Shown here: positions 36,462 through 51,305 of the stretch, piece after piece | Layout of the letters: each line of letters starts with the position of its first letter | Numbering within the stretch: position 1 is the first letter of the stretch | NCBI GenBank assembly: GCA_016870115.1 | Contig: VGCH01000009.1 | Coordinates: 62,001-126,000, forward strand | DNA: 64,000 bases | Reading direction: 5' to 3' | Origin: Alphaproteobacteria bacterium | GTDB taxonomy: Bacteria; Pseudomonadota; Alphaproteobacteria; Reyranellales; Reyranellaceae | The notes under the pieces: generated by a model | The model's database searches: none | What the model was told of the DNA's origin: nothing | The model's input: only the letters and a program-made list of their open reading frames with translations | Made by a program: the position numbers and the translations under genes

Positions 36462-37109
36462 TCACGTGATCGAGCGCACGATCGCGAGCGTGGCGTCGGG
36501 CTCAGGCCTGACCGTGTAGTCCGGATCGGCCTCGACCGAGCGAACAATGCCCGCCTTGTCGATCACGAAGCGCGACGGCACGGGCAGTTCCCAAGCCGCG
36601 TGGCCGGTGTTCTTCGGCAGGTCGATGCCAAAGCTGGCATAGGCGCCGATCAGATCGGTGGGCAGCTCGAACACGAGCCCGAAGGCGCGCGCGATGGCGA
36701 GACCCGTGTCCTGGACGATCGGGAACCCAAGCTTGTGCTTCCCGGCAAGACCCGCCGAGAGCGACGCGTTTTCAGGCGAGAACACCACGAGCTCACCGCC
36801 CGCATTGCGAATCTCGCTATAGATGGTCTGCAGAGCCTCCAGCTCCGTACGGCAGTAGGGTCACCAATGCCCGCGGAAGAAGGACAGCACCAGAGGACCG
36901 CGCCCCAGCAGGTCGCCCGAGGCGATCGCCCGGCCGTCATGTGAGAGGCCCGCGAAGGCAGGCATCATCTGGCCGACCTTGACGATCCGGCCGAGGATCC
37001 CCGACGCGCGCAGGTCGGCGGTCGCCCGCTCCATGATCGCCTTGCGCTCGGGGGGAATGCGCGCCGCCGATGCCGCGCGAATGGCATCCAGTTTTTCTTT
37101 CAGCGCCAT
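36462..37109 (-). CDS. Putative selenoprotein: peroxiredoxin-like (AhpC/TSA) with in-frame TGA as Sec83
   Basis: One continuous frame of 215 residues if TGA (36863-36861) is read as selenocysteine. Before it runs MALKEKLDAIRAASAARIPP up to LVLSFFRGHW; after it PYCRTELEALQTIYSEIRNA, then VVFSPENASL. In this peroxiredoxin-like family the segment is normally RGxWCPYC with the peroxidatic Cys first, so the TGA falls exactly on the catalytic residue and gives a Sec-x-x-Cys (83/86) pair. The thioredoxin-fold sequence continues unbroken after the TGA with normal codon use. AGGAGG precedes the ATG by five bases, and a SECIS-like hairpin follows the TGA. Reduction of hydroperoxides is the likely role. 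The alternative is a Cys-to-stop mutation or base-call error; selA, selB and selC are not in the window. Confidence 0.78.
36828..36863 (-). promoter_or_regulatory. Candidate bacterial SECIS element
   Basis: Directly downstream of the TGA, the transcript can fold CUGC-(CGUAC bulge)-GGAGC-[UGGAG loop]-GCUCU-GCAG: an upper 5-bp stem (one G:U) and a lower 4-bp stem. The apical loop starts 19 nt after UGA and has G at its second position. Both agree with the known bacterial SECIS rule (loop 16-37 nt downstream, G in the first two loop bases). The fold was made by eye, not computed. Confidence 0.55.
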
Positions 37110-37191
37110 CGGCGCCTCCTTGACTGCGGGCCACGCGAAAAGGGAAGCGCCGCCGGGCCGCGGCCCGGACTCCCGGCAACGCTGTCGTGCG

Positions 37192-37431: not shown

Positions 37432-37444
37432 AATGGAGGCTCCG

Positions 37445-38368
37445 ATGGACTTGCTGGCACCGATGCGGACCTTCGTGCGGGTGGTCGAGACCGGCAGCTT
37501 CACCGCGGTGGCGCGCGAGGCCTCGACCAGTCAGCCGACGATCAGTCGCCAGATCGCGGCCTTGGAAGCGCATCTCGGCGCGCGGCTGCTGACGCGCAGC
37601 ACCCGGGCGCTCACGCCGACCCAGGACGGCCGCGCCTTCTACGAGCACGCGCGGCGCGCGCTGGAGGCGGTCGGCGAGGCCGAGAACGCAGTCGGCCGGC
37701 GCCGGGGACGGCCGAGCGGCACGCTGAAGCTCTCGATCCCAGTCGTGTTCGGCCGCCTGCATGTCGTGCCGCGACTCGGCCGGTTTCTCGCGCGCTATCC
37801 CGAGCTCTCCATCGAATTGGCGATGGGCGACGGCTTCGCTGACCTTGTGGAACAGGGCATCGATCTCGCGATCCGGGTTGGCGTCGTCCAGGACCAGGGG
37901 CTGGTCGCGCGGCGGATCGGCACGGTGCGACGGTTGGCGGTGGCCGCGCCCTCGTACCTGCGCCGTCGCGGCGCGCCCGATAGCCCGGCCGCCCTGGCGA
38001 GCCACGACTGCATTGCCTACACGCGGCTCGCGACCGGCAATCGTTGGCACTTCCAGGGCCGCGACGGGCCGATCGCCGTGGACATCACGGGGCGCTTCGC
38101 CACCGACAGCTCGGAGGGCGTACGCGAAGCGGTGCGCGTCGGTCTCGGTGTGGCACTGATCCCCGCCTTTGCGATCTCCGACGAAGTGCGGCGCGGTCGG
38201 GTGCGCGTCTTGCTGCGCGACTACGAGCCGACGCCGCTGCCGCTCAGCTTGGTCTATCCCTCGCGCCGATTGGTGCCGCTCAAAGTCCGCGCCATGGCCG
38301 ACTTCCTCGCTCGTGAGTTCGCGCCGGACGGTCCTGGCAAGGCCCCGCCGACCGAGTCCGGAGGTTAG
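37445..38368 (+). CDS. LysR family transcriptional regulator
   Basis: 307 residues from the ATG at 37445, which has GGAGG six bases upstream. The N-terminal winged HTH is LLAPMRTFVRVVETGSFTAV with STSQPTISRQIAALEAHLGA; the C-terminal effector domain follows after a basic linker (GRRRGRPSGTLKLSIP). It resembles the CrgA-like LysR subgroup that acts on nearby stress or oxidoreductase genes. Its end overlaps the stop of the convergent DUF2235 gene by four bases. Possible targets are the divergent small gene and the selenoprotein-like gene. Confidence 0.9.
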   Translation: MDLLAPMRTFVRVVETGSFTAVAREASTSQPTISRQIAALEAHLGARLLTRSTRALTPTQDGRAFYEHARRALEAVGEAENAVGRRRGRPSGTLKLSIPVVFGRLHVVPRLGRFLARYPELSIELAMGDGFADLVEQGIDLAIRVGVVQDQGLVARRIGTVRRLAVAAPSYLRRRGAPDSPAALASHDCIAYTRLATGNRWHFQGRDGPIAVDITGRFATDSSEGVREAVRVGLGVALIPAFAISDEVRRGRVRVLLRDYEPTPLPLSLVYPSRRLVPLKVRAMADFLAREFAPDGPGKAPPTESGG

Positions 38369-49294: not shown

Positions 49295-50724
49295 CGCCGC
49301 CGCCGCGCCGGCAGGAACCGCCGCCGCGCCTCGCCGACCGCGCGCGCGACATTGGCCGGCGCGGTGCCGCCGGGGCTCTTGCGGGCGGCGACCGACGCCT
49401 CGACGGTGAGGACGCGGTAGACGCCCCGATCGATCTTGGGTTCGACCGCGCGCATGTCGGCAAGCGGCAGCTCGTGCAGATCGATCCCGCGCTCATGCGC
49501 GATCCCGACCAGACGGCCGGTCACGTGATGGGCCTGCCGGAACGGCAGTCCCGCCTTGCGGACCAGCCAGTCGGCGAGATCGGTGGCGACGGAGTAGTCG
49601 GCCGACGCGACCGCGCGCATGCGTGTCTTGTTGGCCTTGAGATCGCGCACCATGCCGGCCATCGCCGCGATTCCGAGCTCCAGCGAGTCGGCGGCGTCGA
49701 ACAGCGGCTCCTTGTCCTCCTGCATGTCCTTGCCGTAGGTGAGCGGTAGGCCCTTCAGCATGGTGCAGAGCGCCACGAACGCGCCGAGAATGCGGCCGGT
49801 CTTGCCGCGCGCGAGCTCGGCGGCGTCGGGATTGCGCTTCTGCGGCATGATCGAGCTGCCGGTCGTGAAGGCGTCCGACAGCGCGATGAAGCGGAACGGC
49901 GCGGAGCACCAGATCACGATCTCCTCGGCGAGCCGCGAAAGGTGCACCGCGCAGAGCGACGCCGCGCCCAGGAACTCCACGACATAGTCGCGGTCAGAAA
50001 CGGCATCGAGCGAGTTGGCCATCGGCCGGTCGAAGCCGAGCGCCCGCGCGGTCATGCGCGGATCGATCGGATGCGGCGAGCCCGCGAGCGCCGCGGCGCC
50101 CAGCGGCGACTCGTTCAGCCGCGCCCGGCAATCGGCGAGGCGGCCGCGGTCGCGACCGAACATCTCGACATAGGCGAGCAGATGGTGGCCGAACGTCACC
50201 GGCTGGGCGGTCTGCAGGTGGGTGAAGCCCGGCATGATGGTGGCGGCATGCTCCTCCGCCCGGTCGATCAACGCGGTTTGCAGATCGAGCAGCATCGCAT
50301 CGAAACGATCGAGCGCATCGCGCACCCACAACCGCACATCGAGCGCCACCTGGTCGTTGCGCGAGCGCGCGGTATGCAGCCGTCCGCCGGCCGGGCCGAT
50401 CAGCTCGGTGAGCCGCGCCTCGACGTGGAAATGGATATCCTCAAGCTTGGTCGAGAAGCGGAACTTGCCGCTCTCGATCTCGGCCTGCACCTGCGCGAGG
50501 CCCCGCCGGATCGCACGCCCGTCGGCGGCCGAGATGATCCGCCGCGCCACCAGCATTTCGGCGTGCGCCATCGAGCCCGCGATGTCCTGGGCATAGAGCC
50601 GCTTGTCGAAGCCGATGGACGCGTTGATGCGCTCCATGATCTCCGCCGGACCGAGCTTGTAGCGACCGCCCCACATCGCGTTCGACCGGCTCGCGCCTCG
50701 CTTGTTCGTGATCTTCCGTGCCAT
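49291..50724 (-). CDS. argH: Argininosuccinate lyase
   Basis: 477 residues. It splits argininosuccinate to arginine and fumarate. The signature loop [20 protein letters not shown] carries the catalytic Ser. [20 protein letters not shown] and [20 protein letters not shown] supply the other active-site blocks. The N-terminus ([20 protein letters not shown]) is slightly longer and more basic than average; an internal ATG at codon 17 is the alternative. First gene of argH-lysA-DUF4175, divergent from a TlpA-like gene with 35 bp between starts. Confidence 0.96.
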
Positions 50725-50759
50725 GTCCGACTTCGCAAAAACTGTTAGGAACGGGGCTT

Positions 50760-51305
50760 ATGGCATATCCCCTCCCCCCGCCCAAGCGCCGCGCCGTGCT
50801 GGGCGCCGCGCTCGCGGCGAGCGCGCTCGCCGCCGTGCCGGCGCGCGCGGCGGGTCTTGCGAACCTGCAGCGCCACGCCGCCCCGCGTCCCGTACCGGCC
50901 CTCGAATGGATCGACGCCGACGACAACCTGCGAACGCTGGCGCCGCTCGCCGACCGAGTCATCGTGATCAATTTCTGGGCGACTTGGTGTGTTCCCTGCG
51001 TGAAGGAGATGCCGAGCCTCGACCGGCTGCAGGGCGCGTTCCCGGTGGAGAAGCTGGTCGTCTTGCCGCTGTCCGTGGACGGTCCGTCACGCCCGCGCGT
51101 AGCACCATTCTATCGCGACCGCGGGCTCAGGCACCTCGGTATCTTCTTCGATCGCGGACGCAAGACCATGCAGGCGCTCGGCGTCACCGTGCTGCCGACC
51201 ACACTGGTGATCGACCGCGACGGGCATGAGGTGGCACGGCTGGAGGGCGAAGCCGAATGGGATTCCCCCGACGCCCTCGCCTACTTTCGCGGGCTGGTCG
51301 CCTAG
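50760..51305 (+). CDS. TlpA-like exported thiol:disulfide oxidoreductase
   Basis: 181 residues from the ATG at 50760. An N-terminal Tat/Sec signal (PPPKRRAVLGAALAASALAA, cleavage near ARAA) precedes a thioredoxin fold with INFWATWCVPCVKEMPSLDR (redox pair C-V-P-C) and cis-Pro in GVTVLPTTLVIDRDGH. It would reduce or isomerise disulfides in the periplasm, for example during cytochrome c maturation. The argH-tlpA divergent arrangement is common in alphaproteobacteria. Confidence 0.9.
   Translation: MAYPLPPPKRRAVLGAALAASALAAVPARAAGLANLQRHAAPRPVPALEWIDADDNLRTLAPLADRVIVINFWATWCVPCVKEMPSLDRLQGAFPVEKLVVLPLSVDGPSRPRVAPFYRDRGLRHLGIFFDRGRKTMQALGVTVLPTTLVIDRDGHEVARLEGEAEWDSPDALAYFRGLVA

Follow-up and report, generated by a model that had tools for sequence, protein, structure and literature searches.

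Within the stretch of DNA analysed here (64,000 nucleotides at full length, referred to below as the window), a peroxiredoxin-like (Prx-like) reading frame is interrupted by a single TGA that falls inside its active site. This raises the question of whether the codon ends a broken gene or is read as selenocysteine (Sec), and, in the latter case, which reaction the resulting selenoenzyme would carry out.

The frame and its product

The frame runs on the minus strand from 37109 to 36462 and contains exactly one internal TGA, in the context RGHW-U-PYC. The first-pass annotation had located it by the same coordinates but left the minus strand unstated; the ribosome site that it called excellent was found again, with AAGGAGG placed 5 nt before the ATG. 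The features of the gene are as follows:

36462 to 37109, minus strand: predicted Prx-like selenoprotein gene of 215 aa, with Sec as residue 83 (ATG at 37109-37107, terminal TGA at 36464-36462)
37115 to 37121, minus strand: Shine-Dalgarno sequence AAGGAGG, 5 nt upstream of the ATG, read directly
36861 to 36863, minus strand: in-frame TGA, predicted Sec codon (codon 83, first position of UPYC)
36852 to 36854, minus strand: Cys86 codon (TGC), the final residue of UPYC, unchanged across 43 aligned homologues

When the protein is read through the TGA, it matches the Pfam family AhpC-TSA with 81.5 bits (cut-off 26), in a match that spans the TGA (residues 45-191), and the family Redoxin with 58.9 bits (cut-off 26.6), which bears out the earlier observation that the frame stays family-like beyond the TGA. 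A PF00578 domain and a UxxC active site are thus both present, and no export signal was seen in the 215-aa protein. A LysR-type regulator gene, recognized by eye, lies divergently from the gene at 37433-38368 of the window (plus strand); such a neighbor is not evident beside the Prx-like gene of the nearest relative (L110). The window also holds a second gene with an AhpC-TSA domain (50718-51305, plus strand), which has a WCVPC motif and no internal stop, and whose product is of the ordinary TlpA/ResA-like sort and may carry an export signal at its N-terminus.

The TGA and its hairpin among homologous genes

Scanning some 85,000 species genomes turned up 80 homologous loci. Codon 83 is TGA in 10 of these, which are the ten closest (45-71% identity), and TGC or TGT in the other 70, a distribution that argues against both chance and sequencing error. 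The proposed check of aligning homologues at residue 83 thus returned Cys codons in the more distant relatives. Among 75 genomes of the Reyranellaceae, an orthologue was found in 38, and all 38 carry exactly one TGA; the remaining matches in this family (~29-39% identity) are more distant copies and nearly all free of stops. In an even sample of 385 alphaproteobacterial genomes, the TGA form is present in 16. One genome (G369) contains a tandem pair of Sec copies of the gene on contig 11 (4727-6281; L173).

Downstream of the TGA, the dN/dS values of 14 pairs of Sec forms lie between 0.05 and 0.27, so that this region evolves as coding sequence under strong purifying selection. A pseudogene, in which a premature stop would end a truncated and non-functional protein, has nothing but the TGA itself to recommend it, and is refuted by the comparative data: 50 Sec forms of distinct sequence share the TGA at this codon, none of the 38 Reyranellaceae orthologues has acquired a second stop, and selection continues past the codon. 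An error of sequencing or assembly at 36861-36863 can be set aside just as firmly: the same TGA recurs in isolates and metagenome assemblies that were sequenced independently, among them the isolate genome of Enhydrobacter aerosaccus ATCC 27094, which refutes an error for the entire family.

The first-pass annotation had also pointed to a SECIS-like hairpin after the TGA. Its elements were delineated as follows:

36828 to 36855, minus strand: predicted bacterial SECIS hairpin, from conservation and folding
36845-36842 paired with 36836-36833, minus strand: apical stem GAGC/GCUC, the core of 4 bp
36841-36837, minus strand: 5-nt loop UGGAG, which starts 19-20 nt after the UGA
36855-36852 paired with 36831-36828, minus strand: outer stem, from the minimum free energy (MFE) fold of the window sequence

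The 42 nt from the UGA onward fold at -10.4 kcal/mol, which is not unusual for their composition (z = -0.14), and folding energy was accordingly dropped as uninformative evidence for a SECIS element. Conservation is more telling, in that 33 of 36 distinct Sec forms can make all four core pairs of GAGC/GCUC, as opposed to none of 74 Cys forms, and that the first two loop positions are both G in all 36. Beneath the core, the pairing is straight in 17 forms and proceeds with a bulged U18 in 19, so that a 7-bp stem kept in a single register throughout, whose lower pairs fail in these 19 of the 36 forms, was rejected as a description of the element. A bulged U of the U18 kind is a feature of the fdhF element of E. 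coli.

The strongest synonymous constraint among the Sec forms falls on codons 90, 88, 89 and 92, the top four of 146 scored, and these coincide exactly with the apical stem-loop. Of the 50 Sec forms, 49 spell Ala92 as GCT, a codon that none of the 84 Cys forms uses there and that is rare in the window, where it makes up only 5% of the Ala codons of eight genes. The stem shows weak covariation, with a single double change, because it encodes near-invariant residues. The published rules for bacterial SECIS elements (bSECIS) ask for a loop of 3-9 nt, a stem of at least 4 bp, a spacing of 16-37 nt from the UGA, G at the first two loop positions and an MFE of at most -7.5 (PMC13188914), and the hairpin, with a spacing of 19 nt and an MFE of -10.4, satisfies them. 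Rfam gave no relevant match. As judged by conservation, the SECIS-like hairpin is real, and the earlier suggestion is upheld by the core pairs, the synonymous constraint and the bSECIS rules together.

Selenocysteine machinery in the host and its relatives

The host genome (3.56 Mb in 59 contigs, completeness 100) was searched for the sel genes, as had been proposed, and all of them are present. The genes for tRNA-Sec (anticodon TCA), SelB and SelA lie on contig 19, where they adjoin a formate dehydrogenase operon, and selD lies on contig 34 (3705-4631; L170) behind a fused N-terminal FAD/NADH oxidoreductase domain. This fusion is a 792-residue open frame, counted from stop to stop, and resembles the Ndh-SelD fusions recorded in the GOS survey.

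Besides the Prx-like gene, two further redox genes of the host are interrupted by TGA. The host FdhA (contig 19, L169) has its own TGA within a UHGP motif, beside selA, selB and tRNA-Sec. A TlpA/ResA-like redox gene on contig 39 (17111-18163; L003, L202) has an in-frame TGA in an SWUGCR motif; it is matched in 71 of the 75 Reyranellaceae genomes, nearly always with the TGA, and fits the "UGC-containing TlpA disulfide reductase" selenoprotein (PMC13188914).

The Prx-like TGA form and the Sec machinery also occur together across genomes. Among the 385 Alphaproteobacteria, selA was found in 16 of the 16 genomes with the TGA form and in 40 of the 369 others (Fisher p = 5e-15); where the comparison is made with genomes that have only non-TGA homologues, selA is present in 8 of 34 (p = 1.5e-7). 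In one genome (G164), the Prx-like gene adjoins selD-selA-selB; apart from this case, no conserved gene neighborhood was found, and the flanks vary between relatives. Four Sec-carrying Reyranellaceae genomes (G005, G016, G042 and G051) lack a match to selA, possibly through gaps in their assemblies.

Given these conserved parts, SelA and SelD would make Sec-tRNA-Sec, and SelB would deliver it while bound to the hairpin, which follows the UGA at a distance of 19 nt; with SelB bound there, the UGA would be read as selenocysteine. Were TGA instead read as some other amino acid, by a general reassignment or by suppression with Trp, an open frame would result too, but the Prx-like gene and its neighbors terminate normally at TGA, the relatives have Cys rather than Trp at the site, and a complete Sec system and a SECIS element are at hand, which leaves this explanation with next to no probability. 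The gene is therefore very probably a selenoprotein gene in which the TGA of codon 83 is read as Sec, a reading of the sequence data that agrees with the first-pass annotation and draws on the Sec machinery, the conserved TGA, the Cys homologues, the SECIS element and the purifying selection past the TGA.

Active site, known relatives and descent

An AlphaFold2 model of the protein, of very high confidence (mean pLDDT 95.9, pTM 0.92), is nearest to the Bcp/PrxQ/AhpE peroxiredoxins, with a TM-score of 0.90 by target length to Bcp4, and then to ResA. In the alignment with the peroxiredoxins 2ywn and 2cx3, and also 3drn, residue 83 occupies the Thr/Ser position of the motif PxxxT/SxxC and Cys86 that of the peroxidatic Cys. 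The TGA had earlier been placed at the codon of the peroxidatic Cys, which these alignments do not support, Sec83 standing at the Thr and Cys86 in the peroxidatic position. In the comparison with ResA, residues 83 and 86 correspond to both Cys of the CxxC motif, residue 83 lying on the first. The catalytic Pro of the peroxiredoxins (at 79) is replaced by the invariant Arg79, and their catalytic Arg (at 178) by the near-invariant Pro178, which aligns with the Pro of PLPTTF in ResA. Among 43 homologues, R79, W82, P84 and C86 never vary, and residue 83 is always either Sec or Cys. Of the peroxiredoxin signature, PxxxT/SxxC plus the catalytic Arg, the position of the Cys alone is kept. CPYC is the classic glutaredoxin motif. 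The placing of Sec83 on the first Cys of CxxC, together with the replacement of the peroxiredoxin Pro and Arg, therefore marks the site as thioredoxin/glutaredoxin-like within a peroxiredoxin fold.

Since the Pro, Thr and Arg of the peroxiredoxins have given way to Arg, Sec and a thioredoxin-type Pro, the protein is most likely a thiol:disulfide oxidoreductase, which on the sequence comparisons is a probable assignment rather than a secure one. Sec83 would be the attacking nucleophile and Cys86 the resolving residue; a Se-S bond would form between the two, and thioredoxin or glutathione would reduce it. A variant would be a thioredoxin-type peroxide reductase, likewise attacking via Sec83. The chief competitor is a true peroxiredoxin selenoenzyme, which would reduce peroxide in the Prx pocket with Cys86 (or Sec83) as the peroxidatic residue and the other as the resolving one. 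The overall fold and the alignment of Cys86 with the peroxidatic Cys speak for it, but the residues that activate the peroxide are all replaced (Arg79, Sec83 and Pro178) and the site corresponds to that of ResA, with its CxxC and Pro, so that we regard it as unlikely, though deserving of some weight.

UxxC Prx-like selenoproteins have been recorded repeatedly, with 22 sequences from the Sargasso Sea (PMC1088965) and 225 of "Prx-like 1" in the GOS survey (PMC2398784), and reviews list a "Prx-like thiol:disulfide oxidoreductase" selenoprotein (PMC9312934, PMC13188914). A stop-codon survey of 2007 distinguished TxxU from UxxC Prx-like proteins, which place Sec at different columns (PMC1914089). 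The thiol:disulfide oxidoreductase kind (PF00578, UxxC or UxxU; WP_010940744.1) shares its Pfam domain and its CxxC Cys homologues with the window protein, which likewise has Sec first in a thioredoxin-like UxxC; the window protein differs from the catalogued UxxC kind in its alphaproteobacterial host, its UPYC motif and an N-terminal extension of ~40 residues. The Sec-peroxiredoxins (PF00578, TxxU) have the same fold and Pfam family, but there Sec replaces the peroxidatic Cys, whereas Sec83 stands at the Thr position three residues upstream. Oxidoreductases of the ResA/TlpA type (PDB 4nmu, 3c71) gave the best single-sequence matches in the PDB, with WCxxC and the later Pro aligned; unlike these, the window protein has no export signal that could be seen, a model nearer to Bcp/PrxQ and Sec in place of Cys. 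The AhpC/TSA selenoprotein of the cd02970/PF13911 type (PMC9312934, PMC13188914) belongs to the same AhpC/TSA superfamily but has UxxS instead of UxxC, and PF13911 gave no match to the window protein at E 0.001. The model for SelL-related redox proteins (NF040769) scored 28.4 bits, under its curated cut-off of 120 bits.

The window gene thus probably belongs to the UxxC Prx-like selenoproteins already known, as part of an alphaproteobacterial branch, the Geobacter representative WP_010940744.1 having been compared by domain and motif. Among the papers searched, none was found that names UPYC, selenoproteins of Reyranella or Enhydrobacter, or an alphaproteobacterial Prx-like branch, and the main text of the deep-Sep paper (PMC12013277) does not mention Prx-like proteins. 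The earlier remark that the UPYC form deserves confirmation was fair as regards the branch, but the UxxC Prx-like family itself has stood in the catalogues since 2005. The present analysis contributes a well-supported alphaproteobacterial clade of an already known kind of selenoprotein.

A likelihood tree, for which the active-site residue was masked, unites every one of the 50 Sec rows with a single Cys row (L038) in one clade (SH-aLRT 97), which fits a history in which Sec arose once and reverted once. The genome assembly with this Cys form has no match to selA; the Sec-carrying genomes tested beside it have selA, except one (G459, the record of L029). The Cys form has thus probably reverted from Sec once the machinery was lost. 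Among 399 genomes sampled across the phylum, no Sec forms were found outside the Alphaproteobacteria. It may be, and we put this forward tentatively, that these proteins constitute a distinct alphaproteobacterial selenoenzyme subfamily that has not been catalogued separately, in which a peroxiredoxin fold was refitted with a glutaredoxin-type UPYC, with a single origin, a spread over about ten families together with selA, and a reversion to Cys upon loss of the Sec machinery.

In a Sec survey of 2006, FdhA was the only selenoprotein family recorded in Alphaproteobacteria (PMC1794560), and these bacteria were once thought to use selenoproteins almost only for formate oxidation. By contrast, the present gene would encode a thiol-redox selenoprotein in about half of the Reyranellaceae genomes and in several further families of the class, so that a widespread gene is hidden wherever annotation ends at the TGA. 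With its one Cys form in a genome without a selA match, the clade offers a clean case for studying the retention of Sec, and the predicted selenoprotein can be put to the test in cultured hosts, Enhydrobacter aerosaccus among them.
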